From Pseudomonas capeferrum (GTDB taxonomy: Bacteria; Pseudomonadota; Gammaproteobacteria; Pseudomonadales; Pseudomonadaceae), in assembly GCF_000731675.1 (NCBI RefSeq), contig NZ_JMIT01000001.1:1301526-1365525 (forward strand): 64,000 bases of DNA. The letters are read 5' to 3'. The notes under the pieces are model-generated. The model had not been told where the DNA came from. It saw only the letters and a list, made by a program, of their open reading frames with translations, and did not search any database. Both the position numbers and the translations under genes were made by a program. Below are positions 31,542 to 47,645 of this stretch, one piece after another; position 1 is the first letter of the stretch, and each line of letters begins with the position of its first letter.

Positions 31542-31695
31542 TGCTCAGCCCTCGGCGGATGAACGCTGCGATGCTGAACAGGCTGACGGAGCCGGCGAGC
31601 AAGGCCCAGCCAGTGCCCGCCAGAATCCAGACTCCTGCGCAAGCTAGGCCGAACCCGCACACCGCGCAAATGATGAAATAGTGAAATGCGTTCAT
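31534..31695 (-). CDS. Small membrane protein between terL and portal, 53 aa
   Basis: MNAFHYFIICAVCGFGLACA, then WILAGTGWALLAGSVSLFSI, ending FIRRGLSSD: two hydrophobic segments with a basic C-terminus. Its start overlaps the terL stop and its end overlaps the portal start, so it is translated as part of the packaging-head operon. Function unknown. Confidence 0.65.
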   Translation of the reverse strand: MNAFHYFIICAVCGFGLACAGVWILAGTGWALLAGSVSLFSIAAFIRRGLSSD

Positions 31696-33173
31696 GCGAT
31701 CAGTGGGTCCCGAATGCCAGCCATGAAGTTATCCATTCCCCCTCGGCCTTCAGGATTGAGGCTGATCAGAGAAACGGCGTTGAAAGTAGCCATCAGCGGG
31801 TCAATCTTTGCTGTGCCCGAAGCCTGCTTGGTAATCAAGAACGCATTGGCCGATGGCACCCCTTTGGCGTTACCGCAAGACCAGGCCATCAACGGTTGGC
31901 CGCAGTGCAGGAGCGTGCCTTCGGCAAGCTTGCGCTCTGTCGTCTTGATTGCGCCGGTGAGCTTCCAGCCCTGGGAGATGCCGACGATCTTGTCTTCCTC
32001 GACCTCAGCATCCGCCAAGGCATCAAGAACAGAGCCAATCCCTGCAGGGTCGAGACCCACCTTATCTAGAAGACCTGTGGCATTGACCCGGGCCACAATA
32101 GCCGCGAACTGCGCTACGTCGTCACCGATACGCTCGACGATGGTGAGGTCACCTGCTTTCTCCAGGTCTCTGAGGCGTGGCGCCTCAGATTTGCGCCGTT
32201 CAAGAACAGAAGGATGTGCCCAAGCGTGAGCCCAGTGGAACCACCTGCGGGTACCAGCCTCCCGCCCGATCACTGCTAGCCCGAGCAGGTCATCAAGACC
32301 CCCTCCATCACCACCCACATCGACCACCTCGCACCTGGTGAGGATTTCATCAAGGTTCAGCCAAGTAGCAGCTTGAGCCTCCCAAAACTCCGCGCCGACC
32401 CATGCGTCCGACATCAGCGCGAGGCCGATCTCGATATTGAGATGCTTGGCTAAAAATCCGCGAAGCTCAGCCTCGCCATCCAGTTCAGCCTGCATGAACA
32501 GGCGTTCTAGGGTGGGGCGATCGACCGAGTATTCAATGTTGGGGTTCACCAGATGGAAGTTTTCAGGCTTCCGCGCCTCTCCGCTTTTGATCATCTCCTT
32601 CGAGAATTCGTAGATGATCGGCAGGAAGCGGTTGTCGTCGATTCGACCATCCCGCACGCCCCGAGCATAGGTCAGCTTCGACTTGAAAACGCCTGCTGGC
32701 GGCTCGTTCGACTGCGTCGTAAGCCAGATGATGAAGCCCTCAGGCCGTGACAGCAGGCCACCGGTAGCCTCTCGAATCATGTCGGCCGCTTTCGGGTTCT
32801 TGCCGAACAGCCAGGCTTCGTCGATCAGGACACCAACTGCCTTCTTGCCGCCCACCACGTCGCTATCGGCTGCTACCACTTTCAAGGTCGCGCCAGTCTC
32901 GCGATGAGTGATCAATCGCAAGTGTGGCTGCACGTGCAACAACGCTTTCAGCTCGTCGTCGTTGTTGACCATGTCCTTGGCCGGGATGAACGAGTTGTCG
33001 GCAATCTCCTTGGTCGGCGCCAAGATGATGAACTCCGCCGAAAGCCGCCAGTTGCGGATCAGTGCAGTCAGCATGATCCCAGCGGCGATCGTAGATTTGC
33101 TGTTCTTTTTAGGGATGTCAATACGAAGCCGCAGGCCCCTTCTAATAATGCTTCGAGCATCATGGCGGCACAA
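31692..33173 (-). CDS. terL: Terminase large subunit, 3' part (gene split by the satellite)
   Basis: Codes for residues 86-559 of the rebuilt protein. It opens in the middle of the P-loop (IPKKNSKSTIAAGIM). Then come GVLIDEAWLFGKNPKAADMI (Walker B), GFIIWLTTQSNEPP (coupling motif) and the RNase H-like nuclease with VDVGGDGGGLDDLLGLAVIG. Codons upstream of 33117 (MCRHDARSIIRRG...) come from satellite DNA and do not match terminases. The missing 85-90 N-terminal codons are at 46873-47148, 13.8 kb away. As it stands, no functional motor ATPase can be made; excision at the 15-bp repeat would restore the frame. Confidence 0.93.
   Translation of the reverse strand: MCRHDARSIIRRGLRLRIDIPKKNSKSTIAAGIMLTALIRNWRLSAEFIILAPTKEIADNSFIPAKDMVNNDDELKALLHVQPHLRLITHRETGATLKVVAADSDVVGGKKAVGVLIDEAWLFGKNPKAADMIREATGGLLSRPEGFIIWLTTQSNEPPAGVFKSKLTYARGVRDGRIDDNRFLPIIYEFSKEMIKSGEARKPENFHLVNPNIEYSVDRPTLERLFMQAELDGEAELRGFLAKHLNIEIGLALMSDAWVGAEFWEAQAATWLNLDEILTRCEVVDVGGDGGGLDDLLGLAVIGREAGTRRWFHWAHAWAHPSVLERRKSEAPRLRDLEKAGDLTIVERIGDDVAQFAAIVARVNATGLLDKVGLDPAGIGSVLDALADAEVEEDKIVGISQGWKLTGAIKTTERKLAEGTLLHCGQPLMAWSCGNAKGVPSANAFLITKQASGTAKIDPLMATFNAVSLISLNPEGRGGMDNFMAGIRDPLIA
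33103..33117. repeat. Satellite attachment core, left copy
   Basis: TTCTTTTTAGGGATG, identical to 46880-46894; the flanking bases differ on both sides. Read on the minus strand it encodes I-P-K-K-N of the terminase P-loop. Confidence 0.9.
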
Positions 33174-33194
33174 TGTACCCCCTTAGATACCCCC
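33174..33194. promoter_or_regulatory. Integrase arm-type sites, left end of satellite
   Basis: TGTACCCCC (33174-33182) and GATACCCCC (33186-33194) occur about 60 bases inside the left core; the same two motifs occur at the right end. Confidence 0.65.
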
Positions 33195-33334
33195 ACTGTG
33201 ACGATGGTGATATGCTTAAATTCAGAGTTTTTTAAACTGAACGTCAAAATAAGATCGCTACTGAAATTTGAAGGTCGCGCTCGAAAAGCGCCAACCTGCG
33301 CAACGTGATGAGCCCGGCTGGAAGGACGCCACCA

Positions 33335-35617
33335 ATGACAAGCTATGATTTCCAACAGCTTTCCCCAAATGACTTCGAGGTGCTTTCTCGAGACCTTATT
33401 CAGGCTCGAGATCAGATCACCCTTGAATCCTTTAAGTCTGGAAGAGATGGCGGAATAGACTTCCGGATTGCCCAAGGATCAAAAAACACAATTGTGCAAT
33501 GTAAGCACTATAGTGGCACCGGCTTCGCTGGATTGTTGAGCAGCCTAAAAAAAGAAACGATTAAGGCTCAAAACCTGAGCCCAGATCGATATATCTTAGT
33601 AACATCGGTAGGATTGACCCCAGAAAACAAGTCCACGATTACAAAAATATTTGGCCCAATACTTTCGACAAGTGACATCATCGGCCGAGACGACCTGAAC
33701 AACCTGCTAACCCTGTTCCCAAAAGTCCAACTTACACACTACAAACTCTGGCTCGCAAGTAAGATCGTACTAGATAGAGTTCTTTTTAATGCCTCTATTA
33801 CGCAAAGCGAGTTCGATGCACAGCGTGTCCATCGAGACATTCAGCGATATGTAAGCAGCGCAGCATTCCCTAGGGCGCTGACAATGCTTAAAAAAGAGCA
33901 TGTCGCAATCATCTCCGGCGCTCCAGGGGTCGGCAAAACAACCTTAGCGAAAATGCTAATCTTCCAATTTCTCGACCAGGGCTACGAACTTATATCCATT
34001 GTAGAAGGGTTCCGGAGCGCCCGAGAGCGCTATGATAAAAATATAAAGCAAATATTTTATTATGATGATTTTATTGGAGCCACTTTCCTTGGTGAGAGCG
34101 GTTCGTCTTTCACAAGAAACGAAGACCGCGAGATCTTGGACTTTATCGAGCTAGTGCAAAGCTCCACCAATTCAGCCCTCATAATGACCACGCGAGAACA
34201 CATTTTACGACAAGCGATTTCAATATCGGAAAAGCTTAAGCACTCCACCATTATTGATAGGCACTGCGTCCTCGAGATATCGGACTATTCGCAGCACGAG
34301 CGGGCGCTAATCCTATATAACCATATATATTTCAGCAAACTACCAAAAGAGTACAGATCAGCACTTCTAAAGGATCGCTTCTACACCAAAATTGTTAAGC
34401 ATGCCAAATTCAATCCCAGACTTATAGAATGGTTATCATCTTACTATCGAGTCAAATCGGTGCCCGCGGAACACTATCAAGAATTCATAACAAACCTGCT
34501 TGACAATCCCGCTGAGATTTGGGCTCACGCTTACGAGAATCAAATTAGTGATGCAGCTAGATCCGTACTTTTAGCGCTCTACCTATGCGGCGGGAGAACT
34601 GATGTAAGAAACTTGGAGAGATCGTATAGCGCTCTCCATGTTATTCGATCAGTACATTACGGATTCCGTACTCAACCATCAGACTGGCGGAGGGCGCTAG
34701 CGGAAGTAAATGGGTCCTTCATTCGACCAGGAGCCAAGATCGAATTCATCAACCCTTCTGTGTTAGACATGTTGAACAAAGTAATTCGAGAAGACACTTC
34801 CAACTTCCTCGATATATTAGATGCTACCGAAAACTTCCCTCAGCTTCGACGTCTGTGGTTTTTTGCTCAAGCAGAAGGTAGCGGGAGGCTCTTGAGCCAA
34901 CTAAAACGCGATCCGGATCACCTGGCAAAAACACTCGATAGAATCATTAATAAAACGCCTGCCACTGAATACAATCCCGAAACTCACTTCTATTACTCTA
35001 ATACATTAGAAGCAAGAACCGAGACAGTCTTGCAAATCACCTCATCAATTAGCTCTGATAGAATTCAAAAAATTGCGTTAAATTGCCTGAAATCTCTTAC
35101 AAACTCATGGTCAAAAAAAACCGCCAATATAATCAGCGGCGTCGATGTCTTTAAGCAGCTAAACAAAAGCAATTCCCTCCCCACAAACCTCAAAGATCTT
35201 TATCTAGACCTTATCATAGACACCCTGCTGGAACACTCACTGAATGAAGTCCGCTCGAATGATCTTTGCTCACTTCTAGATATCATTGACAAGCGTCCTA
35301 GCACTTTGCGCTCTGACACTCTTGCAAAGGCAATTGAACAATATCTAGACGATTACTTCAGGGAAGAGCTCTCAGAACTCAGCTCAGTATCAGAGTTTGA
35401 GTCTTTCGAGCAAGACCTTATTACTCTAGGCAACCAAATAGATGTTGACATTTCCTCTGAACGCACTTGGATTTCTGAAAAAATTAGTGAGCTCGAGGCT
35501 TATCATGACGAACAGTCTTCTTATGCTTATGAGAGCTGGAAGGAAAGCAGAGGATCCTATCGGGAGTCTGAGCCATCTATTGATGAGCTATTCAACACTC
35601 TGAGCGGTTCAGATTAA
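33335..35617 (+). CDS. Mrr-like nuclease-STAND NTPase fusion, probable anti-phage protein
   Basis: 760 aa; start after GGAAGGACGCCACCA. Residues ~1-115 form a restriction-endonuclease-like domain: FEVLSRDLIQ, then GRDGGIDFRI and NTIVQCKHYSG, the D-x(n)-Q-C-K pattern of Mrr-type nucleases. Residues ~150-400 are a STAND-type NTPase with P-loop ISGAPGVGKTTLAKML, acidic IFYYDDFIGATF and MTTREHILRQ sensor region. The remaining ~350 residues are helical and repeat-like, the likely sensor. The layout matches nSTAND effector-NTPase-sensor defence proteins. The gene is markedly AT-richer than its neighbours and sits at the cargo end of the satellite. Confidence 0.85.
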   Translation: MTSYDFQQLSPNDFEVLSRDLIQARDQITLESFKSGRDGGIDFRIAQGSKNTIVQCKHYSGTGFAGLLSSLKKETIKAQNLSPDRYILVTSVGLTPENKSTITKIFGPILSTSDIIGRDDLNNLLTLFPKVQLTHYKLWLASKIVLDRVLFNASITQSEFDAQRVHRDIQRYVSSAAFPRALTMLKKEHVAIISGAPGVGKTTLAKMLIFQFLDQGYELISIVEGFRSARERYDKNIKQIFYYDDFIGATFLGESGSSFTRNEDREILDFIELVQSSTNSALIMTTREHILRQAISISEKLKHSTIIDRHCVLEISDYSQHERALILYNHIYFSKLPKEYRSALLKDRFYTKIVKHAKFNPRLIEWLSSYYRVKSVPAEHYQEFITNLLDNPAEIWAHAYENQISDAARSVLLALYLCGGRTDVRNLERSYSALHVIRSVHYGFRTQPSDWRRALAEVNGSFIRPGAKIEFINPSVLDMLNKVIREDTSNFLDILDATENFPQLRRLWFFAQAEGSGRLLSQLKRDPDHLAKTLDRIINKTPATEYNPETHFYYSNTLEARTETVLQITSSISSDRIQKIALNCLKSLTNSWSKKTANIISGVDVFKQLNKSNSLPTNLKDLYLDLIIDTLLEHSLNEVRSNDLCSLLDIIDKRPSTLRSDTLAKAIEQYLDDYFREELSELSSVSEFESFEQDLITLGNQIDVDISSERTWISEKISELEAYHDEQSSYAYESWKESRGSYRESEPSIDELFNTLSGSD

Positions 35618-35697
35618 TATTTTATGCCAGCGGCGCTTTAGTTGAGAGCGACTCCAAACCCGCCTTGACTCACATCCTAAACTAATATTCGCCTAAG

Positions 35698-35720
35698 GGT
35701 GTCCTCAAACTGAGGACACC
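35698..35720. terminator. Perfect 10-bp hairpin between convergent cargo genes
   Basis: GGTGTCCTCA, AAC loop, TGAGGACACC. It lies between the STAND gene and the convergent DUF3825 gene. No long U-run, so termination is inferred from position. A near-copy is at 37521-37544. Confidence 0.55.
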
Positions 35721-35729
35721 ACTGTTCAC

Positions 35730-36500
35730 TTATGGCTGCAACCACTCCTTGTCCGGCTTAGCTAGCAAGCGAGCATTGCCGTAGGCCCAGTCCAGCATCA
35801 GACAGGTCGCAGCCCGATAGAAGGTGTTGTGATCTTCAATCACCAGCGCCAAATCAGCTTTGGCGGGGTTGCCTATACACAGCGGAAGCATTAACTGAAC
35901 TTTGCCTTTATAAAAATTTGGAACAGCTGTTTTATAATTGCGCCGAACTCTCTCACGGGCATTGTCTATAACGCCTTTCAGAAGGGACTGTAAAACGTAA
36001 TTCTCCATACCACAATATGGATGAGGAAAACGCTCTTTATTCTCAGAGACTATATGCTCAACATTAACCCGGAAATCTTTCCGATGATCGAACACGAGCA
36101 CTGCTGGATCATCAAAATAATGAGCCATTTCCGGTAGGTATTCGAAACTATTTAAGTCGGCTTCACCTCGGCGTACGAACCGCTGAAAATACCAAGGCTG
36201 CCTAGCTCCAACGTTACGATTTTGGTTGAACAAGGCGTAAATCGGTTCTTGTGTAGGCGTTACTAGCCCTGTATTAAAAGTAACATGCTGACCGTCCCCA
36301 GCCAACTCTACCTTTTCTTCTTTGGCAAGGCGCTTGTATGTGTGTTTTAGATAGTTCCCTAAGATCGGCTTACGACCATCAGCCTCAGTGAACTGGTAAT
36401 CCCAGTTTTCTGGCTCAGCCAAATCTGAAAGCTGGTCAAGCTTTTCATCCCAACCTGGGAAAAATGCGAAGTCGAACAAGTCTTCCGGTAGATCTTTCAC
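35730..36500 (-). CDS. DUF3825-domain protein
   Basis: 256 aa. The blocks LGNYLKHTYKRLAKEEKVEL, HVTFNTGLVTPTQEPIYALF, PWYFQRFVRRGEADL and VQLMLPLCIGNPAKADLALV correspond to the DUF3825 family as I remember it; this was not searched. Members are linked with RNA-binding and nuclease partners. No signal or membrane segment. It sits in the satellite cargo block and is AT-rich compared with phage genes. A defence role is inferred from the neighbours only. Confidence 0.65.
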   Translation of the reverse strand: MKDLPEDLFDFAFFPGWDEKLDQLSDLAEPENWDYQFTEADGRKPILGNYLKHTYKRLAKEEKVELAGDGQHVTFNTGLVTPTQEPIYALFNQNRNVGARQPWYFQRFVRRGEADLNSFEYLPEMAHYFDDPAVLVFDHRKDFRVNVEHIVSENKERFPHPYCGMENYVLQSLLKGVIDNARERVRRNYKTAVPNFYKGKVQLMLPLCIGNPAKADLALVIEDHNTFYRAATCLMLDWAYGNARLLAKPDKEWLQP

Positions 36501-36745
36501 TGGTCCACTCCTGTGCTTGAGAGGAGCTGTATAGCTAGGAAGATGTGCGGTGTCAATCTGCCACTAGACGGCAGTCAACACGATCGTGGCGCGTCGACCC
36601 AGCGGTCATCACGAGATGAAGAAGAGGTGCCAGAGGCAGCCATCAGTCATTTTTGCATTACAAGCGATCGTCACATAGGGCTCTGTTGAGCTCGGCACGG
36701 GCACCGCCTACCATGGAAGCAATTGGCCGCCACTGGGAGGGGAAC

Positions 36746-37483
36746 ATGATTTCGGCGATGATCGATGGGGAAAAGCGGCCTCCTATCCAGAAGGGAGAGC
36801 GGACGGCATGCGAGGGTTGCGGTGGGGTACTTAACGCCGTCATGCCGCAATTCAACGCTGCGCACTGGAGACATAAGGGAGGTGACTGTGACCCGTGGAG
36901 CGAAGCGGAGGGCGAATGGCACAGGATGTGGAAGAGCTTGTTCCGCCCGGCGCATTGCGAGGTCTTCATGCGCGACCCCCACAGCCAGGAGATCCATAGG
37001 GCCGATGTGATGTGCCCTGGCGAAGGAGCAAAAGGTGTCGTACTTGAGCTTCAGCACTCACACATTTCCGAGGAAGAGCGTTCGGCTAGAGAAACATTCT
37101 ACTCCAGGGAACACCGTATGTTTTGGCTCCTGAATATGCACAGAACACCGTCTCTCGCGTTCAGCTTCGGCACCTGCTTGAGCTTTCAGGAAGCGAAAAA
37201 GGAAAGCTTTGGTGGTCGGGATTTCTACCACATGGAATGGATCATGCGTGGGTCGCTGCTCGATAAATGGAAGCAGTCACGGGCTCATGTATTCCTGAAT
37301 TACGACGGTCATATCTACTACCTCGCAACCAACGCTGCTTGTCGCCCTATTGTTAGTCGGCAGGCCAAGGGACATTTCGCACTAGCTGCGTTGAGCATTC
37401 GAGAATTTCTCAGCGCAGTGTCTGGTGGAAATGAGTCAGCGATACAGCTACCGCCGCGGAGCGCAGCGGCAAAGGGCCAATGA
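36746..37483 (+). CDS. CoiA-like nuclease-family protein
   Basis: 245 aa; the start follows GGGAGGGG. An N-terminal zinc-finger-like part (ACEGCGGVLNAVMPQFNAAH, HWRHKGGDCDPW) precedes the nuclease-like core WHRMWKSLFRPAHCEVFM, IHRADVMCPG and VVLELQHSHISEEERSARE. These Cys/His, R-A-D and E-x-Q-H-S features are those of the CoiA competence-protein family. Stand-alone CoiA-like proteins occur in mobile cargo; whether this one acts on incoming DNA is unknown. Confidence 0.75.
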   Translation: MISAMIDGEKRPPIQKGERTACEGCGGVLNAVMPQFNAAHWRHKGGDCDPWSEAEGEWHRMWKSLFRPAHCEVFMRDPHSQEIHRADVMCPGEGAKGVVLELQHSHISEEERSARETFYSREHRMFWLLNMHRTPSLAFSFGTCLSFQEAKKESFGGRDFYHMEWIMRGSLLDKWKQSRAHVFLNYDGHIYYLATNAACRPIVSRQAKGHFALAALSIREFLSAVSGGNESAIQLPPRSAAAKGQ

Positions 37484-37520
37484 TACGCACGCGGAAATGC
37501 AAACTTCTCCAGCGCGACGA

Positions 37521-37544
37521 GGTATCCTCAAAACTGAGGACACC
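37521..37544. terminator. Hairpin between CoiA-like and gpI-like genes
   Basis: GGTATCCTCA-AAAC-TGAGGACACC, one mismatch in a 10-bp stem; a near-copy of 35698-35720, again between convergent genes. Confidence 0.5.
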
Positions 37545-37590
37545 TCTAATTTCCCGTAGCTCGGGATGTTCGCAGTGATCCTGGCTCACT

Positions 37591-38190
37591 TTAAGCCTTG
37601 TCCTCTGCCACGATCGAGGCTGAGATGATAGCCCCGCCCCAGCGGCGGTGTCCGATGCAAATTGGCACGGGTAGGCCGCTGGCTGTGGTGTTCTTGGCGC
37701 TGCCAAAGGCGTAGCTCGCCATGTTCTCGGGCGAACCGCTGTGGCTTAGCCCGCTGGTCTGTGGGCTTAGCATCTGCAGCACTCCACCGGCCACGTTAGC
37801 AATACCGGCGCCCATCAGGCCGGCAGCAAGGCCTCCTGAGGCGAATGAAGCAGCGACGATCAGCGCTACGCCAAGAACGGTCTGCAGCAGCCCGCCACGC
37901 TTGCTGCCATGTACCACTGGGACAAACCAGAGCTCCCTGGCCCCGCCCAGGTCAAGTTCGCCTTCGCTGATGTTCTTTCCATTCTTGAAAATGGCGAAGC
38001 GCAGCCCCTTCGCTTCAGAATCCGCCAGGTCACGGGCGAAGCCTGGGTGGTTGGCATCCAGCGCCTTGGTGGCCTCTCGAGCGTCGCCACGATCCAGCAC
38101 GAAGTGGTGGTGCTTGCCGTACTTCTTGCCCAAGAAGCCGCCCAAGCGGATTTTGGTTTTTGGTGCGTAGTCGATCACGGCGGCATTCAT
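37591..38190 (-). CDS. Lambda gpI-like tail assembly protein in the satellite
   Basis: 199 aa, starting MNAAVIDYAPKTKIRLGGFL. The N-terminal half is a ubiquitin-like beta-grasp (FLGKKYGKHHHFVLDRGDA, NGKNISEGELDLGGARELWF). The second half has the Gly/Ala-rich hydrophobic stretch of gpI (GGLLQTVLGVALIVAASFAS, GGVLQMLSPQTSGLSHSGSP). The last ~25 residues (PVPICIGHRRWGGAIISASI) match the usual C-terminus. The surrounding prophage has no such gene at its normal site between NlpC and J. The ATG overlaps the upstream gene's stop. Confidence 0.8.
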   Translation of the reverse strand: MNAAVIDYAPKTKIRLGGFLGKKYGKHHHFVLDRGDAREATKALDANHPGFARDLADSEAKGLRFAIFKNGKNISEGELDLGGARELWFVPVVHGSKRGGLLQTVLGVALIVAASFASGGLAAGLMGAGIANVAGGVLQMLSPQTSGLSHSGSPENMASYAFGSAKNTTASGLPVPICIGHRRWGGAIISASIVAEDKA

Positions 38191-38549
38191 CACACGGCCT
38201 CCTGTGGCATAGCCAGGTGCACGCCCAAGCGCCGAGCGAGCATCTCGCGGCACTGTAACGCCTCCAGGCGAATGGAGGCCTCTCGGGCAGGGTCAGGGTT
38301 CCAGTTGGGCGCATAGCTCGACATGGAAGCGAGAGCGCCGCGCAGGGTGCCACGCAGCAAGTCGGCGGATATCCGTGCTTCCTCCTCTGTAAAGAACACG
38401 CCATCGAGCTTGATCCTCTGGCCGGCCTGGATGTGCTCGACTTCCCACAGCTGATAGCTGGGCCCACCCTTATCAATGGTGAAGGTGGCCACGTTGCAGG
38501 CTCGGGCGAAACGCTCTTGAAAGGTGGATGGAGCTGTTTGAATAGTCAT
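38190..38549 (-). CDS. Hypothetical satellite protein, 119 aa
   Basis: A soluble helical protein (TFQERFARACNVATFTIDKG, EEEARISADLLRGTLRGALA) coupled to the gpI-like gene by an overlapping stop/start. It is preceded by the GTTAAC-rich cos-like region. Family not recognised. Confidence 0.6.
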   Translation of the reverse strand: MTIQTAPSTFQERFARACNVATFTIDKGGPSYQLWEVEHIQAGQRIKLDGVFFTEEEARISADLLRGTLRGALASMSSYAPNWNPDPAREASIRLEALQCREMLARRLGVHLAMPQEAV

Positions 38550-38567
38550 CAGCGGTAGCCTCCAGGT

Positions 38568-38707
38568 GTTAACTCGCAGGAGTTAAAGCGTTAACTTTTT
38601 GAGGTTAAAGGTGTTAACTCGGTTAACACCCGCCAGCGGCTGCTATCGGCGTCTATGCCTCTGTTTCCGTGGCTTCCAGCTCCATGCACGTTCGGCATGG
38701 TGTTAAC
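38568..38707. repeat. GTTAAC/GTTAAA box array beside the satellite cos-like site
   Basis: Seven GTTAA[A/C] boxes start at 38568, 38582, 38590, 38604, 38613, 38622 and 38702. Two such boxes (47618, 47630) lie beside the helper's copy of the cos-like block. They could be small-terminase binding sites (cosB-like) or a promoter-region operator array. Confidence 0.55.
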
Positions 38708-38729
38708 CTCGTTTTAACTTTTTTTTAAC

Positions 38730-38796
38730 ACGGGAAAAAATGTGTACGTGGGGTCCTAGGCGGTCTAGGTCAGCGAACCTTCCAGACTTTCGACCC
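38730..38796. other. Putative cos site mimic in the satellite
   Basis: Identical to the helper sequence at 47646-47712 in three blocks at identical spacing. Block 1 is 26 bases (38730-38755, containing GGGAAAAAATGTGTACGTGG); four differing bases follow. Block 2 is GCGGTCTAG (38760-38768); 23 differing bases follow. Block 3 is GACCC (38792-38796). In the helper this lies between the HNH and small-terminase genes, where HK97-type phages have cos. Conservation in patches with fixed spacing argues for a functional protein-DNA site rather than a recent duplication. Confidence 0.8.
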
Positions 38797-38803
38797 GCCC
38801 CCC

Positions 38804-39001
38804 TCAGTAGGTCGGCGCGATGTACGGCGGCGCCGACCGGATCTGCTCCAGCGCTTCGGCTGCGCTCAGGCCGCTGGCCAACAGGCGATCGATCTCTTTG
38901 CTCAACCGCTCACGCTCTTCCATCTGGCGCAACAGGGCGCGGCTGTGGGCGATCTGGTTGAGGGCTCGTTGAACTGGCTTGGGTAGATGGGTATGGCTCA
39001 T
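38804..39001 (-). CDS. Small helical satellite protein, 65 aa
   Basis: MSHTHLPKPVQRALNQIAHS, then ALLRQMEERERLSKEIDRLL and a Pro/Tyr tail: an amphipathic, coiled-coil-prone protein. It lies between the capsid gene and the cos-like site; a GGAGAAGACC ribosome site follows a terminator. It could be a scaffold or capsid-size factor by position, but nothing proves this. Confidence 0.55.
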   Translation of the reverse strand: MSHTHLPKPVQRALNQIAHSRALLRQMEERERLSKEIDRLLASGLSAAEALEQIRSAPPYIAPTY

Positions 39002-39021
39002 GGTCTTCTCCGGTGTGAATG

Positions 39022-39043
39022 AAAAGGCCCGCGAGTGCGGGCC
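39022..39043 (-). terminator. Intrinsic terminator downstream of the satellite capsid gene
   Basis: GGCCCGC/GCGGGCC 7-bp stem with a 4-base loop, followed on the minus strand by UUUUC. Confidence 0.75.
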
Positions 39044-40288: not shown

Positions 40289-40369
40289 GGGTATCTCCGG
40301 GGTGTCTAAGTAATGCCATCTACCCTATGCGCGCACGCACACCCCGGTCAGCGGTTAACTTCGACGTCC

Positions 40370-40600
40370 TCAGTCGGTATCCGTCGCAAAGCGCACTATG
40401 TCGGCTATTTTGTAGAACCGCCGATTGCCACGGCGCACGAATGGCAGCGGTGACCGACCCTCGGCAGCCAGGCGGCGGAGGTAGCTGGGGGCATATCCCA
40501 GCAGGTCTGCCGTGGCTGGCTCGGGTACCAAGCCTCCAATCAATGGAGTGATGCCGGCCTGGGCCAACCGCTCGGTAACGTCCTGTTCAACGTCCACCAT
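40370..40600 (-). CDS. MerR/excisionase-like DNA-binding protein, 76 aa
   Basis: The segment PEPATADLLGYAPSYLRRLA followed by AEGRSPLPFVRRGNRRFYKI has the winged helix-turn-helix pattern of AlpA/MerR-type regulators (helix-turn-helix, then a wing with RR-NRRFY). It is encoded 3 bases downstream of the recombinase gene at 40604-41893, so it could be a recombination directionality factor or a regulator of the capsid gene below it. Confidence 0.7.
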   Translation of the reverse strand: MVDVEQDVTERLAQAGITPLIGGLVPEPATADLLGYAPSYLRRLAAEGRSPLPFVRRGNRRFYKIADIVRFATDTD

Positions 40601-40603
40601 GAT

Positions 40604-41893
40604 TTACATGCTCCTCTGTGATGCATCCGGGTTTTCGCTAGAGGCCGCGTGGTCTGTGGCCTGTGTCGGATTTTGTGGGATTGCGTATCTCGGGTATGTC
40701 TCGCCTGTGAGTGCGTTCAACCCGAGCCCGTCTAAATGGTCGTGCCAGCGTTCCAGGGCTTGGCGCTTGAGGGCTTCGGCGGTGGTGTGGATGTAGGTGG
40801 CGTCCATGTTGCGCAGGGCGTGGTTCACCAGCATCTCGCCCACCAGGTAATCCACGCCCAGGTCCATCCAGCAGGTGCGGGCCACCTTGCGCACATCGTG
40901 GCTAGTCCACTGGCGGTCGCTCAGTTCGGCAAACACCTGGCTCGCTGCGGTGGTGCTAAGTGGCCCGCGCCGGCTGGCTGGGAACAGGTAGGCACCGTGA
41001 TAGCCCTGGGCGGCCTGCTGGGCTTGATAGCGGCTCAGCAGTGCGCAGGCTTGGCGGGTGAGCGGCAGGATGTGGTTCTGCTTGGTCTTGGTGTCATCAG
41101 CGGGGATGAACCACTGGCCGGCCTGCAGATCGACGTTGCGCCACAGCGCGCTGCGCGTCTCGCCCAGGCGGGTACCGTGGCACAGCATCATCAGCGCCAG
41201 CAGGGCGTCACCGGGCCGCACCTCGCTCCAGCCTGCCAGCTTGGCCAGCAGATCGGGCAAGTGCTTCTCGCGCAGCCGGGACGACTTCGGCTTGATCCGC
41301 ACCGCAACGAAATCCCCGAAGCGCAGCGAGCCCATGGGGTTCTGCTCGATCATCCCGAGCCGGTGTGCCTTGCGCATGGCCACCGCCAGCACGTTGAACA
41401 CCAGACGGACGAACGACAGTGCATAGCGCTCCTGCAGTGGCCACATCAGGCGTTGATCGAGTGTGGCCTTGTTCACCTCGGCCAGCGGTAAGTCATGCAG
41501 CCGTGGCGCCAGGTGGCAGGTCATGGCCGACTTCGCGCCGGCCTTGCGCTTGGCTGACAAGTTGCGGTCGCGCAGCATGCGATCCAGGTACCAGTCCAGC
41601 AGCTCACCGGTACGGCTCCAGGTGCTGGTCAGCGAGGTGGCCTCGGCGTCTGCGGCACGGCGCCCCAGGATGGCCGGCAGCGCGGTCAGCATGGCCTTGG
41701 TGGTCAGGCTGGGGAAGTCGCCGGCCTTGCCCCACTTGCCCCTGACAACGACGTGCCAGGCGCCCCGGGTGCGGTCGACGGTCGAATAGCGGAATCGCAG
41801 CTCGGGGTAACGCGGGTCACGCAATTGGCGCACTGGCTGGCCGGCCTGCTTGCGTATCTCGGCGTCACTGAGGGTGATGTGTTTGGTGGTCAT
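40604..41893 (-). CDS. Second tyrosine recombinase of the satellite
   Basis: 429 aa. The catalytic pattern is present: Arg I in LLALMMLCHGTRLGETRSAL, the H-x-x-R box in WTSHDVRKVARTCWMDLGVD, a further His in MLVNHALRNMD and Tyr in ATYIHTTAE. It is a close structural parallel of the helper gene at 50775-52064, also 429 aa, sharing LMWPLQE, RLVFNVLAVA, NPMGSLRFGDF and the HGTRLGETR box. It is internal, not next to an attachment core, so its target is unlikely to be the terL junction. Inverted repeats cluster just upstream of its start. Confidence 0.85.
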   Translation of the reverse strand: MTTKHITLSDAEIRKQAGQPVRQLRDPRYPELRFRYSTVDRTRGAWHVVVRGKWGKAGDFPSLTTKAMLTALPAILGRRAADAEATSLTSTWSRTGELLDWYLDRMLRDRNLSAKRKAGAKSAMTCHLAPRLHDLPLAEVNKATLDQRLMWPLQERYALSFVRLVFNVLAVAMRKAHRLGMIEQNPMGSLRFGDFVAVRIKPKSSRLREKHLPDLLAKLAGWSEVRPGDALLALMMLCHGTRLGETRSALWRNVDLQAGQWFIPADDTKTKQNHILPLTRQACALLSRYQAQQAAQGYHGAYLFPASRRGPLSTTAASQVFAELSDRQWTSHDVRKVARTCWMDLGVDYLVGEMLVNHALRNMDATYIHTTAEALKRQALERWHDHLDGLGLNALTGETYPRYAIPQNPTQATDHAASSENPDASQRSM

Positions 41894-42030
41894 GTTTGCT
41901 CCTCAAACTGAGGGTGTCGTTTAACCGAACCAGGCCAGATGATCCGAATCAGACCAAATGAGCCGATTCGGATCAGGGCGCCACTGTGTCGAAAGCAACA
42001 CACTGTGGCGTTTTCTACACAGTGGCGAAC
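41894..42030. repeat. Cluster of inverted repeats upstream of the second recombinase
   Basis: CCTCAAACTGAGG lies at about 41900-41912. GATCCGAATC (41941-41950) pairs with GATTCGGATC (41965-41974). GCCACTGTGT (41980-41989) pairs with ACACAGTGGC (42017-42026), with another CACTGTGG between. All dyads are perfect. They fill the 250-base non-coding stretch between the recombinase and the next gene. Confidence 0.75.
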
Positions 42031-42143
42031 GCGGTCGGGCCATCCGATAAGGTGGGAAAATCCCGTGTTTTGCCGAAGCGGGAATTCCCGCCAACCTCGT
42101 CGAGCGCTCGCCGATTGCTCGCCTAGGTATCCACTGAGTCTCG

Positions 42144-42437
42144 TCACGGCCCCACCTCCGCACCTGGCCAGCGCACGCGCACGTCGGCCAGCGCTTCGTC
42201 GCGGGTAATTGGCTCGCTGATCATGGTGAATGGCCGGCACTCCGGCACCAGCACCGTCCAGTTGCAGCGGCGCTCCAGGCCATCGTTCGCAGCCAGCTCG
42301 GCCAGCAGCGCCAGACGATGAGCCTTGACGTACCTGCGCACGTCGTCGGTCAGCTTTGACGCGGGTGAAATCCGCACCCGCATACCTTGCTTCTTGGCGG
42401 TAAATCCACGTTCCACCAGGTAGTCGAGCGCGGCCAT
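42144..42437 (-). CDS. Small satellite protein, 97 aa
   Basis: Begins MAALDYLVERGFTAKKQGMR and has the pattern VRISPASKLTDDVRRYVKAH, then LALLAELAAND, resembling the small helix-strand domain found in TubC-type docking and phage helicase-neighbour proteins. The start overlaps the helicase stop (TAATG), so it is made with the replication genes. Possibly a helicase partner. Confidence 0.6.
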   Translation of the reverse strand: MAALDYLVERGFTAKKQGMRVRISPASKLTDDVRRYVKAHRLALLAELAANDGLERRCNWTVLVPECRPFTMISEPITRDEALADVRVRWPGAEVGP

Positions 42438-43711
42438 TACAGATCCTCCGCATCATCATCCAGTGATGGGAGTGACGTTCCGTCTGGCAGTGGCCCTCTC
42501 AGGTATTTCGCCCAGTCGTGCCCTTTTTCTTCAGTCATGCCCATGTCCAAGGGTGGGCACGACTGAGGGCCAGAAGGCACGACTGAGGGGAATGGGGCAT
42601 AGGCGCCTTCGGCCTGAGGAAGGGACCAAGTGACAACGGTGTCCCCTCCAAAGCCGGATCGATCTGTAGTGATCGAGAGACGTTCGCGTGCAGTACGAAT
42701 CTGCTTTTGGGTGTAGCCATTGCCGACCATCAAGCTCTTTGCTTCTTTGCCTGGCAGCGGGCCCTTGCTGAGAATCCTACGCAAAGCTTCAGCCGGATCA
42801 TCCGAGTCATCCAGCCGCATACCATCATCTTGGCCTTCCACATCACCCAGGATCTCGCGGGCTGAACCCTGAATCAAATCACCCCACAGAACACGGGTGG
42901 CCTGAATGCCTCCGTCAATCGTGTATGGCTCGATGGTGTAGGAAACGCCTCCCTCATCAGTCCCGATGTTGGACTTCGCACGCGCCAGCACACGGGTGTC
43001 GGAGTCTTCCTGCTTAGCCGCCACCATTACTGTGCGTGCCAGTGCAGAGAACGCCTGCGACCCAATGACCCGGTCAGCAGGTGATGCCCCTGCGCCACCT
43101 TTGGCGAAGTGGGATATACCCACTACGGCACATAGGTTCTGCTCGGCGAAATCAACAACACCCTGCAGGCCCCGCCGCACGTCATTAGCTTTGTGCATAT
43201 CGCCTTTGACGGCGCTAACCACAGGGTCGAGCATCAACAGCGAGATTCCGCCGATCTCGCGCACCGTGTCTCGAAGCAGACCAATGTCGTTACCGGGATC
43301 GAAGGGGTCCGATTCTCCATTGGCATTGATCCGACCTTGAATGATGTAGACCCGCCCCATATCAGCGCCCGCAGCAATCAAGCGCGGCACCAGGGTGTCT
43401 GATGGATCGTCCTCGCTCGACCAAATCAGCGCATTGCCAGGCTCGCTGCTGAGGCTCCCGTCAGGCCAGCGTCCGCCAGTGGTGATGGTTGCAATCAGGC
43501 CGATCAGCAGCGTGGTTTTCCCGGTACCGCCGGCGCCAGCAAGGATGTGCAGCTTTCCTCGTGCCAGCCAACCAGGCCAGAGCCAACGAATCGGTACCGC
43601 TTTAATTGTCGATGCCTTCACCGCATTGACTCGCCAGAGAGGCGTGACGGTTTCCCGATTGATGGGGCTCAGTGGCTCTGTCCATTCTTGTGCGAAGCGA
43701 TCTGTAGTCAT
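42437..43711 (-). CDS. RepA/DnaB-like replicative helicase (AAA family)
   Basis: 424 aa. P-loop in LHILAGAGGTGKTTLLIGLI, Walker B in ISLLMLDPVVSAVKGDMHKA, further RecA-fold motifs in VVGISHFAKGGAGASPADRV and QAFSALARTVMVAAKQEDSD. This is the RepA-type hexameric helicase of satellites and plasmids. A C-terminal winged-helix-like part follows (RILSKGPLPGKEAKSLMVGN). The last 50 codons contain an iteron cluster (42514-42584). It is directly coupled to the primase gene upstream. Confidence 0.85.
   Translation of the reverse strand: MTTDRFAQEWTEPLSPINRETVTPLWRVNAVKASTIKAVPIRWLWPGWLARGKLHILAGAGGTGKTTLLIGLIATITTGGRWPDGSLSSEPGNALIWSSEDDPSDTLVPRLIAAGADMGRVYIIQGRINANGESDPFDPGNDIGLLRDTVREIGGISLLMLDPVVSAVKGDMHKANDVRRGLQGVVDFAEQNLCAVVGISHFAKGGAGASPADRVIGSQAFSALARTVMVAAKQEDSDTRVLARAKSNIGTDEGGVSYTIEPYTIDGGIQATRVLWGDLIQGSAREILGDVEGQDDGMRLDDSDDPAEALRRILSKGPLPGKEAKSLMVGNGYTQKQIRTARERLSITTDRSGFGGDTVVTWSLPQAEGAYAPFPSVVPSGPQSCPPLDMGMTEEKGHDWAKYLRGPLPDGTSLPSLDDDAEDL
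42514..42584. repeat. Iteron cluster A (crr/ori-like) inside the helicase gene
   Basis: AGTCGTGCCC (42514) and AGTCATGCCC (42533), then inverted GGGCACGACT (42555) and AGGCACGACT (42575). Starts are 19, 22 and 20 bases apart. The same arrangement recurs at 45123-45193. Confidence 0.85.
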
Positions 43712-44115
43712 TTAACCCCCAGGCGCTGCTTGGCGAGGTTGAAGCGCGCCAGGTCGTCACCCTCCAACTTCCCTGCTTGTTGGAGAGAGTGGCCGATCCG
43801 ATAAACCATGCGCTCATGTTCAATTGCAGCCTTACTTGGGCCATGCCGAGTTTGTTTGCCTCCGGGGAACAAATCCCGCAGCTCCAGGCCAACTGCAGAG
43901 ACAATTTCTTTAGTCGTGCAACCTGCCCAGCACTTGAGCAAGATAACACCCTCGGAAGTTTCACTTATTGCCAAGCTTGGGTGCTTGTCGTCGTGTGCAG
44001 GGCAGCAGGCTTTCCATTTATCAATACCAGCGGACTTAACTTTGTCTAACCGAGTAAGAACTTTATCCAGGCAAGCCGATCCCATCGGCGCAAGTGCACC
44101 GTTTTGAATGTTCAT
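43708..44115 (-). CDS. CHC2-type zinc-binding primase protein, 135 aa
   Basis: Residues ~35-80 hold the primase zinc-ribbon pattern: WKACCPAHDDKHPSLAISET, then VILLKCWAGCTTKEIVSAVG (C-x2-H ... C-x2-C). Only the zinc domain and a short helical tail are present; the TOPRIM catalytic part of full primases is absent. It likely recruits priming activity together with the helicase whose gene it overlaps by 4 bases. Confidence 0.8.
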   Translation of the reverse strand: MNIQNGALAPMGSACLDKVLTRLDKVKSAGIDKWKACCPAHDDKHPSLAISETSEGVILLKCWAGCTTKEIVSAVGLELRDLFPGGKQTRHGPSKAAIEHERMVYRIGHSLQQAGKLEGDDLARFNLAKQRLGVK

Positions 44116-44117
44116 GG

Positions 44118-44414
44118 TTAGGCTCCGGGTTTAACTTCGGATAAATGGTAAGTCGCTGCAGCGCCAGTGTCGGACAAGTTGCCGACTAGACTGCCCAGGC
44201 TTTCGAGAAGCCAGCCTATATCAGTGACCGCCGCAGAGCTCAGACCGGTTTCACCGTTCGATGCTGTACAAGCCAACAAGTGGCCTATGCCTGATATCCC
44301 ATGTGCGAGCACCGACACACAGCTTTCAGTTGCCTGCTCTGTCGCTTTGAGCTGACCGGGAGTCATGTTCTTCAGCGCTTCGTGGCGTGGCAGGAGATCG
44401 TTCCAGTAGCTCAT
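44118..44414 (-). CDS. Hypothetical satellite protein, 98 aa
   Basis: Pattern MSYWNDLLPRHEALKNMTPG, then ESCVSVLAHGISGIGHLLAC and DIGWLLESLGSLVGNLSDTG: helical with small residues. It overlaps the upstream ORF by 4 bases. It resembles short helical proteins of Pseudomonas mobile elements; function unknown. Confidence 0.6.
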   Translation of the reverse strand: MSYWNDLLPRHEALKNMTPGQLKATEQATESCVSVLAHGISGIGHLLACTASNGETGLSSAAVTDIGWLLESLGSLVGNLSDTGAAATYHLSEVKPGA

Positions 44415-44680
44415 TGAACACCCCCGACTTCGTTTGCGCCGTAGCTATAGCCGATATACCGGTGCCGCCAGCAAAAGTTCTGCGAACCGAGTTTGACGTT
44501 ATCGAGCTGCGCGTAAAGGTCTTTCGAGATCGGATGCTGCTGCCCAAGAGCCGGGATAATCATCGCAGTGAGGATACGTTCGAGCTTTTTGAACGCCTCC
44601 CTTGCCTGGTTTTGATGATGGCATTCGAAATCGGCGAGAACGGCCGGCTCCAGCAGGGTTTGCTTAGGAACACGGATCAT
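44411..44680 (-). CDS. Hypothetical satellite protein, 89 aa
   Basis: Helical soluble protein (DFECHHQNQAREAFKKLERI, ISKDLYAQLDNVKLG). Overlaps both neighbours by 4 bases, which supports translation. No domain recognised. Confidence 0.6.
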   Translation of the reverse strand: MIRVPKQTLLEPAVLADFECHHQNQAREAFKKLERILTAMIIPALGQQHPISKDLYAQLDNVKLGSQNFCWRHRYIGYSYGANEVGGVQ

Positions 44681-44835
44681 TGCTCACCCCCTTGGGCTTC
44701 AAGGGCGCGAGCCTGGTCTATGTGGTGGTTGTAGCGCTTCAAGCGGAGGGAAAGGGAAGACTTTGCGCGGAGAGCGCAGAGAGCGAGCTTGCGATGCGCG
44801 AAGGCTCGAATTTTGGACGGAATAAGGGCGTGCAT
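44677..44835 (-). CDS. Small basic satellite protein, 52 aa
   Basis: The start ATG at 44835 follows AAAAGGAGCTACGCCC, a strong ribosome site. The product is very basic (SKIRAFAHRKLALCALRAKS, SLRLKRYNHHIDQ) and might bind nucleic acid. It is the first gene of the replication operon. Confidence 0.6.
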   Translation of the reverse strand: MHALIPSKIRAFAHRKLALCALRAKSSLSLRLKRYNHHIDQARALEAQGGEQ

Positions 44836-44986
44836 GGGCGTAGCTCCTTTTGCTGTGGAGCTGCCACGATCCTTCCTACGGGATTGGGTGGCAGCTATGC
44901 GTGGGGTAGGAATACCGGGGCAAAAGGGTCCCGGCCAGACCGAAGTCTGCCCACGCACAGCCGCCATAAAACAGGAATGCGGACGC

Positions 44987-45019
44987 AAAAAAAAGCGCCT
45001 GCAATCGAAATGGGGCGCT
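44987..45019 (-). terminator. Intrinsic terminator downstream of alpA
   Basis: AGCGCC/GGCGCT stem with a 14-base loop followed on the minus strand by eight Us. It would stop transcripts coming from alpA after they cross the iterons. Confidence 0.65.
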
Positions 45020-45122
45020 GTGCGCCTTTTGCTTGCTCGGGTTCCTACGCCCGGTCGCTGAATTTGCAGCGACGTGCGAACGATAGCCGCTCCAATAGGC
45101 TGTGGCAACAGGAATATTCATC

Positions 45123-45193
45123 AGTCGTGCCCTTGTGCCCTCAGTAATGCCCAACCTTATGCATGGGCACCACTGAAGAAAAAGGGCACGACT
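45123..45193. repeat. Iteron cluster B (ori-like) in the alpA-replication intergenic region
   Basis: AGTCGTGCCC (45123) and AGTAATGCCC (45143), then inverted GGGCACCACT (45165) and GGGCACGACT (45184). Starts are 20, 22 and 19 bases apart, the mirror of cluster A. Confidence 0.85.
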
Positions 45194-45207
45194 GGGGGCC
45201 TTGCGCC

Positions 45208-45396
45208 CTACACGCATCGTCTTGAGCCTCGTTCTGCGATCCGTCCAGCAATCCACGCTTCAACCTCGGCCTCCACCCACGCCACAGATCGCAGCCCAAT
45301 CTTTACGGGCTGGGGGAAAGAGATATCAGTGTAAATAGCAGTCTTGCTCAAGCCGGTGCGGCTTTTTACCTGTTCTAATTTTAGTAGCGTAGCCAT
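45208..45396 (-). CDS. alpA: AlpA-family regulator/excisionase
   Basis: 62 aa from MATLLKLEQ. The winged helix-turn-helix of AlpA is clear: KLEQVKSRTGLSKTAIYTDI, FPQPVKIGLRSVAWVEAEVE, AWIAGRIAERGSRR. In P4-like and Gram-negative island satellites AlpA turns on integrase/excision functions. It lies just downstream of the integrase gene and is separated from it by a terminator, with the start preceded by GGAGAG. Confidence 0.88.
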   Translation of the reverse strand: MATLLKLEQVKSRTGLSKTAIYTDISFPQPVKIGLRSVAWVEAEVEAWIAGRIAERGSRRCV

Positions 45397-45410
45397 TTTT
45401 CTCTCCAAAT

Positions 45411-45435
45411 AAAAAAGCCCCGTTTGAACGGGGCT
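45411..45435 (-). terminator. Intrinsic terminator of the integrase gene
   Basis: AGCCCCGTT/AACGGGGCT 9-bp stem, 2-base loop, six Us on the minus strand; between integrase stop and alpA start. Confidence 0.85.
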
Positions 45436-45453
45436 TGAAAGGGAACACTATAC

Positions 45454-46641
45454 TCAGACCGGGGGTTTGTAGCTCTGCCGCCTTAAATCCAAGTAATCGG
45501 CCCAATTCTGCATTAATGCAATGCGAGGCTTAATATAAAGAGCATGATTGTACGCAGAACTCACTTTGCCTCTTGATAGGTGTGCAAGCTGGGTCTCAAT
45601 GTGTTCATGATCATATCCCTGCTCATGCAAAATAGTCGAAGCCACCCCACGAAAACCGTGCGAGGTCATTGAGTTCCGATAGCCCATACTTTTAAGAGCC
45701 ATCAAAATGGCAGCTCGACTCATAGTAGTCTTGTGCCCTGCTCTACCGGGGAATAGATACTCTCCCCCATAAGTTATTTGCTTTAGCCGCTTGATAATTT
45801 CGATTGCCTGAGTAGAAAGAGGGACTATATGGGGAGACCCCATTTTCATACGTTCAGAAGGAATCACCCATCGAGCATTATCCAGATCAAACTCAGACCA
45901 GGTAGCCCCAAGCATTTCACCAACTCGAACGAATGTCAGGGCGAGCATCCGCATAGCCAACCTGGTGACCTCGCTCGGGTAATGATCTATCGCATAAAGC
46001 AGTGCCGGAAGGCCCTTTTCGTCCACTCTCGCATGATTCCGAGTTCTATGCTCCCGCAGAAAGTCACTTCCCTGCAGTTCGGAAACCGTGTTGCGGTCGG
46101 CTAGGTCATGAGCCACGGCGTACCGCATGATCTGACCGCAGTATCCGAAGATTTTCCGCGATACGGTCGGCGCCCTGTCCTCAATGCGCTTTAGCATGTC
46201 TCGAAACGTTGAAGGCGGGATGTCGTTAACTGGCCGCCGGCCGATCTCCGGGAACACATCGTTTTCCAACCGACCCCAGACAATTTTGGCGAAATCGGCC
46301 TTCTTCTGAGGCGCCCAGTGTTCATGCCAAAGCTGCGCGGCCTGCTTGAAAGTAACAAAGGCCGGCGAACTCTCGTTTGTCTTACGTTTGGCAGCGACAG
46401 GATCGATCCCGTTCGCCAGAACCAAGCGAGCATCGCGATGGAGATTGCGAGCGGCCGCCAGGGACACCTCAGGATAGACCCCAAGCGCCATCAGTTTCTC
46501 TCTTCCACCGAACCGATATTTCCACCGCCAGTAGCGCCCGCCGGTAGGCGTAACAAGTAAGTATAGCCCTCGACCATCTGAAAGCTTACGGCGGGTGCCG
46601 TCAGCCTTGACGTGCCGAAGCTTGACGTCTGTAAGGTTCAT
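45454..46641 (-). CDS. int: P4-type tyrosine integrase of the satellite
   Basis: 395 aa. The N-terminal arm-binding domain is of the DUF4102 type (LSDGRGLYLLVTPTGGRYWR, WKYRFGGREKLMALGVYPEV). The catalytic domain shows FVRVGEMLGATWSE (Arg I), MTSHGFRGVASTILHEQGYD (H-x-x-R), HLSRGKVSSAYNHALY (third His box and nucleophilic Tyr). It is the first gene inside the right attachment core, 240 bases away, as expected for the enzyme that integrated the element. Most P4-type integrases target tRNA genes; this one appears to use a protein-coding P-loop sequence. Confidence 0.93.
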   Translation of the reverse strand: MNLTDVKLRHVKADGTRRKLSDGRGLYLLVTPTGGRYWRWKYRFGGREKLMALGVYPEVSLAAARNLHRDARLVLANGIDPVAAKRKTNESSPAFVTFKQAAQLWHEHWAPQKKADFAKIVWGRLENDVFPEIGRRPVNDIPPSTFRDMLKRIEDRAPTVSRKIFGYCGQIMRYAVAHDLADRNTVSELQGSDFLREHRTRNHARVDEKGLPALLYAIDHYPSEVTRLAMRMLALTFVRVGEMLGATWSEFDLDNARWVIPSERMKMGSPHIVPLSTQAIEIIKRLKQITYGGEYLFPGRAGHKTTMSRAAILMALKSMGYRNSMTSHGFRGVASTILHEQGYDHEHIETQLAHLSRGKVSSAYNHALYIKPRIALMQNWADYLDLRRQSYKPPV

Positions 46642-46681
46642 AGCTGTAAAGCTCTGTTTCGTATGGTAAGGGTGCTGTGTT

Positions 46682-46740
46682 GGGGGTACATGAGTTACAT
46701 ACAGGGAGATACCTTAAAGATACCCCCAAATGTACCCCCA
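46682..46740. promoter_or_regulatory. Integrase arm-type sites, right end of satellite
   Basis: GGGGGTACA (46682-46690), GATACCCCC (46719-46727) and TGTACCCCC (46731-46739). The same motifs occur inside the left core at 33174-33194. Confidence 0.65.
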
Positions 46741-46872
46741 AAATTTCAGCGCTTTAGGCGAACCATCTGAAACCTCGGGAAACCTAGATACTTTCAAATA
46801 TCCCTGTAGATTCAGATAGTTAAGACAGTTTCCTATGCCGCTTGGAACTGCTATGAACGCCGTTGAACCAAT

Positions 46873-47148
46873 CTACGAATTCTTTTTAGGGATGCAGAGC
46901 ATCACCTCACGGATGAGGCGCTCACCGGTCTCGCTGTTGTAGCTTCCGAAGATTGCTCCAGCGAACGCCAACACCCATGGCGCGCATGCGGCCTCGATCG
47001 TCGGGCTTCCTGGGGCATCGACGATCTTCAGCCCTTTGAACACCTCAAGGCTTGCCTCGGCCTCTTCGGGAAATAACGGCTCGGGGATGATCGACTCACC
47101 CGCAGCAAGACACCTCCACCAATCCGGGCAGGCTGTTGTCCATTGCAT
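46873..47148 (-). CDS. terL: Terminase large subunit, 5' part (gene split by the satellite)
   Basis: 91 codons: MQWTTACPDWWRCLAAGESI, then PLFPEEAEASLEVFKGLKIV, ACAPWVLAFAGAIFGSYNSE and RLIREVMLCIPKKNS before a stop. This is the N-terminal region of HK97/P27-type large terminases and ends exactly inside the P-loop. The remaining 474 residues are encoded at 31692-33117. As present, it could make only a short ATP-binding-defective peptide. Confidence 0.92.
   Translation of the reverse strand: MQWTTACPDWWRCLAAGESIIPEPLFPEEAEASLEVFKGLKIVDAPGSPTIEAACAPWVLAFAGAIFGSYNSETGERLIREVMLCIPKKNS
46880..46894. repeat. Satellite attachment core, right copy
   Basis: TTCTTTTTAGGGATG, identical to 33103-33117. 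On the minus strand the terL 5' part runs through it and stops four bases beyond, at a TAG. Confidence 0.9.
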
Positions 47149-47628: not shown

Positions 47629-47645
47629 GGTTAACTTTTCCTGAA

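Follow-up and report, generated by a model that had tools for sequence, protein, structure and literature searches.

Satellites seated inside a helper prophage were first reported from gut bacteria in 2023, as the helper-embedded PICIs (HE-PICIs; Tommasini et al. 2023), which reside in the late genes of Enterobacteriaceae prophages, the terminase gene included (PMC10111431). The founding member is 11capE in prophage 50icd of E. coli NRG857c, and upon treatment with mitomycin C the 11capE/50icd composite was excised and replicated, after which 11capE itself was excised (PMC10111431). The authors were unable to isolate phage particles from 11capE/50icd (PMC10111431), a result that counts against the reading preferred here. 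The insertion sites of HE-PICIs include Terminase_1:245 and 246, several members carry a C4-type immunity RNA and nine carry secondary integrases, and the authors of the survey expected further such satellites elsewhere (PMC10111431). Satellites inside prophages are also cited in the available portion of a 2024 review (PMC11389934). The first-pass annotation of the present locus named tRNA or host genes as the usual seats of satellites, a statement that is incomplete in omitting the HE-PICIs of 2023 with their terminase site.

The DNA analysed here, hereafter the window, is a stretch of 64,000 nucleotides from Pseudomonas capeferrum (contig NZ_JMIT01000001.1, positions 1,301,526 to 1,365,525), and coordinates refer to it unless another locus is named. 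The locus is read, with good confidence, as a helper-embedded P4/PICI-type satellite at the P-loop codons of terL, and packaging by the prophage is likely blocked until the satellite is excised.

The Interrupted Terminase Gene

The late genes of the helper prophage run on the minus strand in the order HNH endonuclease (47787..48125), terminase small subunit terS (47152..47721; PF03592, with a probable ATG at 47628), terL, portal protein (30240..31541), head protease (29379..30236) and major capsid (28195..29382), the HNH, portal, protease and capsid genes being assigned by family match. Among the phage records nearest to the window, 29 of 36 were from Pseudomonas. Helper terL was found to be broken on the minus strand at IPKKN|SKST by an element of 13,777 bp (core-to-core spacing), which occupies 33103..46894 with both core repeats included. 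The 5' piece (46880..47148, minus strand) was recognised from intact homologues and PHROG terminase families, and its frame reads on into element DNA as far as the stop at 46873; the 3' piece (31692..33102, minus strand) holds the remainder of the P-loop with the ATPase and nuclease domains. A repeat search placed the attL core, which encodes (C)IPKKN, at 46880..46894 and the attR core at 33103..33117, CATCCCTAAAAAGAA (minus strand) being an exact 15-bp repeat at both terL junctions. At up to 2 mismatches this core had only 2 places in the window, versus 0.07 ± 0.26 in shuffles. No break separates the junction codons at 17 intact loci (16 related genomes) or in phage vB_PaeS-D14B; there, one contiguous stretch of 15 bp is both where similarity to the 5' piece stops and where similarity to the 3' piece starts, although some of these loci deviate from the bases of the window at one position or more. 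From its position and form, we take IPKKNSKST to be the TerL P-loop (Walker A).

The first-pass annotation had the N-terminal codons of terL (46873-47148, minus strand) ending in IPKKNS and a stop and the C-terminal codons (to 31692, minus strand) resuming at IPKKNSKST, with a 15-bp direct repeat marking both junctions and 13,777 bp removable between them, all of which was confirmed. Its 559-residue TerL on rejoining also agrees, by arithmetic only: the 269 coding bases ending at 46880 and the 1411 beginning at 33102 sum to 1680, or 560 codons including the stop. The split at the end of the N piece stands, but the last S codon and the stop are not terL sequence, being partly element DNA (AA|TTCGTAG). 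An assembly error as the cause of the split was rejected, since two other records show the same arrangement.

Elsewhere in the prophage, the lysis and terminase genes have a tyrosine recombinase gene (50775-52064) upstream of them, and a recombinase of another prophage (L231, 10001-11281) is similarly placed ahead of an intact terL. The role of the former as the helper lysogeny integrase is doubtful, as it lies mid-prophage and another integrase is present at window coordinate 70541-71734, outside the window. To the left of the helper tail genes are an ImpB/MucB/SamB-type polymerase gene (6486-7805) and a D12-class adenine methyltransferase gene (9475-10269).

Gene Content and Attachment Boxes of the Satellite

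Judged by its gene set, the 13.8-kb insert is a P4/PICI-type satellite. Its genes lie on the minus strand unless stated otherwise, beginning with the P4-type tyrosine integrase int1 (45454..46641; PF13356, PF22022 and PF00589), co-oriented with terL, and followed by an AlpA-family excisionase/regulator (45208..45408; PF05930), the a1/b1 targets of the C4 antisense RNA (45034..45086; RF03163, 58 bits) and the C4 antisense (immunity) RNA itself (44884..44971; RF01695, 79.8 bits), also found in the relatives. A C4 antisense RNA with an a1/b1 target constitutes the P4 immunity switch. Beyond it are two small conserved satellite genes (44411-44680 and 44118-44414), a zinc-ribbon primase-like protein (43708..44115) and a RepA-like AAA_25 replication helicase (42437..43711), both assigned by family match, and a small conserved gene with no family match (42144..42437). 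These are followed by a second tyrosine recombinase, int2 (40604..41893), which shares about 48% identity with the recombinase type on the helper side (50775-52064), an HTH_17-like small protein below the Pfam cut-off (40370..40600), the satellite's own HK97-type major capsid (39131..40288; family match), a further small conserved gene (38804..39001), a conserved gene also present in the satellite phiAH14b (38190..38549; 48%) and a tail assembly protein I (TAPI) homologue (37591..38253; phrog_32). The cargo is clustered at the attR end and comprises a CoiA nuclease-like protein just under the Pfam cut-off (36653..37483, plus strand), a DUF3825 protein (35730..36500; family match) and an nSTAND3 NTPase with an Mrr-type nuclease domain (33305..35617, plus strand), the defence candidate PDC-S73. 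No portal, terminase, tape measure or protease gene was found among the element genes scanned, and the virion set is incomplete.

The element presents several of the features by which gram-negative PICIs and P4-type satellites are recognised, namely a P4-type integrase followed by AlpA, a C4/CI-type immunity RNA and an incomplete virion gene set. With P4-type satellites and gram-negative PICIs it shares the P4-type integrase, AlpA, the C4 RNA with its a1/b1 target, the co-oriented body and a variable defence locus, such hotspots being the subject of PMC9122126 as judged from the part of that paper available; those satellites are usually chromosomal and apart from their helper, whereas the window element lies inside it. 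Similarly, phiAH14b of Pseudomonas sp. ANT_H14, which according to the accessible part of its report is packed in the capsids of its helper phiAH14a (PMC4936722), shares the integrase (38%), AlpA (45%), the 38190-38549 type gene (48%) and TAPI (48%) with the window element. In tblastn searches at E 1e-3, phiAH14b presented no relative of the window capsid, the primase pair, the small genes on the C4 side or the second recombinase, int2 matching only as a generic integrase (25%). It is a separate prophage, and the same part of the report does not describe it as embedded (PMC4936722).

Putative integrase arm-type boxes were located on the attL side (46682..46739, minus strand), where GGGGGTAC and GGGGGTAT stand 12 bp apart together with one inverted copy, and on the attR side (33175..33194, minus strand), again 12 bp apart. 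The paired GGGGGTAY boxes, with 12-bp spacing, lie inward of attL by 154-167 bp and inward of attR by 65-77 bp, both in the window and in its closest relative (G163, below), and a third carrier, IMG 2919155634, has the same layout with one degenerate attR box.

Relatives at the Same terL Codon

The integrase was searched for in 398 genomes of the genus, and one close match was found, in G163 (96%), the next match listed being at 40%. The terL gene of G163 is split at the same codon, with N and C pieces 90% and 93% identical to those of the window, and its satellite body genes are 76-100% identical, the 44118-44414 gene being unmatched. Its cargo consists of PD-T7-4 and an AAA_15 ATPase in place of the window cargo. 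The third terL carrier, IMG 2919155634, came from a scan of viral contigs with body proteins; its integrase is 75% identical, its terL N and C pieces 53% and 69%, and its portal 97%, and its cargo is Gabija, defence candidates thus being present in every element read. Two tail assembly protein I homologues stand in tandem in this satellite (L199, 11906-13478). The first-pass annotation had set relatives at the same codon in other phages as a refutation test, and both G163 and IMG 2919155634 carry one. Inteins and homing elements often target conserved motifs, and a target in the conserved P-loop codons would explain the use of terL genes with only 53% N-piece identity by related integrases. 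At a silent position the core reads CCT in the window and CCG in G163, and within each genome its two ends agree. In IMG 2919155634 the core ends agree at only 12 of 15 bases, which makes its crossover less certain and counts against the preferred reading.

Such interruptions are rare: of 54 TerL-N matches in 47 of the 398 genus genomes, only those of the window and G163 (2/54) are split, which is also counted against the preferred reading, and the remaining 52 frames have 557-644 residues. Wider searches of 369 genomes of the class and 398 of the phylum retrieved no split copy besides the window, the phylum search adding five uninterrupted ones. Among phage and plasmid records the best integrase matches listed had about 44% and 46% identity, respectively, and the satellite capsid had no match in phage records at 1e-60. 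In E. coli, 1240 of the 1244 genomes with this terL had a place that covers at least 80% of the gene (60 of 1248 records listed), and the published E. coli terminase sites were not located in that search. An E. coli protein cluster of 277 member sequences (P0018) contains a 137-residue TerL fragment, in 84 contigs, that has foreign last residues and ends about 40 residues past the P-loop.

A Box Shared with the Helper and Late Transcription

A satellite stretch (38714..38768, minus strand) matches a helper sequence (47631..47684, minus strand) that ends 2 bp before the probable terS ATG (47628). Such a stretch matches the helper of its own genome at or just before the terS start in the window (87% over 55 bp), G163 (76% over 68 bp) and IMG 2919155634 (100% over 37 bp). 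The box was found in all eight satellites compared, in four of them with the copy of another satellite as query, and the helper form in 14 of the 17 related intact loci tested, with no match in G326, G140 and G348. Its position makes a role as a packaging site of the cos type likely. The satellite box best matches its own helper in two of the three pairs; that of G163 scores slightly better with the helper of the window (64 vs 60), which is counted against the preferred reading.

On the minus strand, no terminator-like site was found from 47800 to the integrase stop, and one was found directly after that stop. The integrase is read along the late operon with no terminator-like site between, and late readthrough could therefore drive excision. 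Nevertheless, terminator- and promoter-like counts were no higher than in shuffles, a further result that counts against the preferred reading.

Satellites of the Same Body at tRNA Genes

The capsid query gave 16 matches in 14 of 368 genomes. Two of them are the terL cases, and the other 14 were all fetched. In seven of the 14, an integrase of the same family (35-40% identical to that of the window) begins 184-214 bp past a tRNA gene, which is tRNA-Leu(CAA) in five, tRNA-Met in one and tRNA-Leu(TAA) in one. In a further six, a tRNA-Met or tRNA-Arg gene lies somewhere in the fetched stretch, and in G258 no tRNA gene was found there. The sibling satellites in G072, G215, the second copy of G163 and IMG L189 have body genes mostly 75-100% identical to those of the window, the shared box and the C4 RNA, and differ from the window element in an integrase only 38-40% identical and in their place beside tRNA-Leu(CAA). 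In G072 the capsid is 97% and the second recombinase 96% identical to those of the window, against 40% for the integrase, and G163 holds two satellites of the family, one in terL (L162-L163) and one at tRNA-Leu(CAA) (L255). The two terL copies share a replication gene at 97.6% identity, and its identity to those of the tRNA-Leu satellites is 75-77% in most cases. The integration module thus appears to have been swapped and the satellite body retained, the replication gene excepted. Two related satellites of G221 carry a terS-like gene (L256, 7944-8468; L257, 11940-12440), 45-47% identical to that of the helper, right after the small gene, a place where the other satellites have only the shared box.

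Integrase Lineage

The integrase protein search, in which 7999 candidates were scored, returned 16 clusters at E <= 1e-150. In the trees, 15 of these clusters (P0060-P0074) fall together with the integrases of the three terL elements, and a support of 100 separates this group from P0075 and the tRNA-associated integrases. The five nearest outsiders with DNA read (L009-L013) have a tRNA-Ser neighbour in four cases and tRNA-Gln in one; integrases at 47-55% identity had been considered as terL users, which was rejected for L009-L013, all lying beside tRNA genes. Records of a clade integrase and of a TerL fragment share the species and the length of the longest contig both in Paraburkholderia tropica (237,373 bp) and in Burkholderia ubonensis (103,960 bp), and in the two fragments the TerL sequence stops at the same KKN codon. 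These are indirect signs of the same terL arrangement in Burkholderiaceae. A regular expression had flagged 16 of 158 protein fragments, several of which were frameshifts, contig ends or motif variants, and only the P. tropica and B. ubonensis fragments were relied on. The named clade members P0069 and P0073 had no TerL-fragment partner among the 120 listed of 558 fragments, and in the genus search around G998 for the Paraburkholderia case the matches, in 6 of 60 genomes, were all uninterrupted.

Comparison with Helper-Embedded PICIs

The window element resembles the HE-PICIs in being a small int-alpA-primase satellite with its own capsid and mostly co-oriented genes, lying within, co-oriented with and interrupting a prophage late gene. 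Its integrase, however, is only 26% identical to that of 11capE (118 bits by BLASTP, the survey having used a TBLASTN cut-off of 400), and in the tree the 11capE integrase stands on a long isolated branch. The doubled TGTATTGC motif that flanks attP in HE-PICIs is absent here, and a doubled GGGGGTAY box with a 12-bp period is found instead. The family searches run found no Bro-type gene in the window element. The host group is not Enterobacterales and the site is the TerL P-loop, which maps near position 30 of the 178-position TerL_ATPase profile and is therefore taken to differ from Terminase_1:245 and 246. It lacks two features that unite the HE-PICIs in the survey, the integrase clade and the attP motif; the element is regarded as working in a like manner and is not classed with them. 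In the literature covered, no report was found of a satellite at the terL P-loop or of an embedded Pseudomonas satellite, the supplementary site list of PMC10111431 lying outside that coverage. In the Arsenophonus nasoniae plasmid paIh1 (L272, 23530-30702), an integrase, two AlpA genes and a P4-family primase are co-oriented in a phage late operon after a gp10-like gene, possibly an embedded satellite of the published kind.

Proposed Mechanism and Alternative Explanations

According to the preferred reading, helper induction would start late transcription that passes terS and the terL stub and enters the co-oriented integrase gene. The satellite would then be excised as a circle across the core by integrase and AlpA, which would make terL whole, and TerS/TerL could package both the helper and the excised satellite by recognising the cos-like box of the latter. 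The satellite would thus shut the very gene whose product it needs, and the opening of that gene would coincide with its own release. A dependence of packaging on prior excision is plausible and agrees with what was shown for another embedded satellite (PMC10111431). Protection of the lysogen against other phages is the likely role of the variable defence genes at the attR end.

It is unlikely that the element is a fossil stuck together with its prophage, the split terL being permanent damage that silences a defence-carrying prophage. The rarity of split copies (2/54) would suit such a relic, as would the many embedded-satellite helpers that the published survey calls truncated-looking (PMC10111431), but three records retain the integrase, AlpA and both attachment sites with intact frame or sequence, the cargo varies between copies, and the differing histories of element and flanks indicate that the element has moved. 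Those histories also make it quite improbable that a single old insertion was inherited with the prophage and gave rise to all three split copies. The codon and the gene order are indeed the same, and the carriers read number only three, of which two belong to a single genus. In the tree of the terL 3' piece, however, G163 grouped with three intact copies with a support of 99 and the window fell outside; between the window and G163, divergence is 9-12% across most of the element, against 19% in the flank from capsid to terL and 14% in the short HNH flank; and the third carrier pairs a terL N piece at 53% with a portal at 97%. Because the terL tree parts them, the window and G163 are probably separate insertions, which is the simplest reading. 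The least credible alternative, with very little in its favour, is an anti-phage island that inserts into terL of incoming related phages, as the first-pass annotation had also proposed. Defence candidates in every element read and an essential phage gene as target are in keeping with it; nevertheless, residence in a prophage, a packaging-like box and an own capsid fit hitch-hiking, and one insertion would spoil only one phage copy among many.

Significance

The helper-embedded configuration is known already, even with a terminase gene as the target. What the satellite at the terL P-loop appears to add is an integrase lineage that is distant (26%) and has different arm sites, an insertion at the P-loop, another host group and a change of target through a swap of the integrase module. 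It is somewhat favoured that late-gene embedding evolved twice, a P4-type integrase clade, sister to tRNA-Ser integrases, having taken the TerL P-loop codons in Pseudomonas and Burkholderiaceae, with the module swap turning tRNA satellites into locks on the packaging motor that their cos-like site needs. This suggests that late-gene embedding was reached more than once, rather than being a peculiarity of a single enterobacterial integrase clade. Additionally, a near-identical body seated at a tRNA gene or in terL, with both in G163, would allow the benefit of a seat in the packaging gene of the helper to be assessed in a natural controlled comparison.
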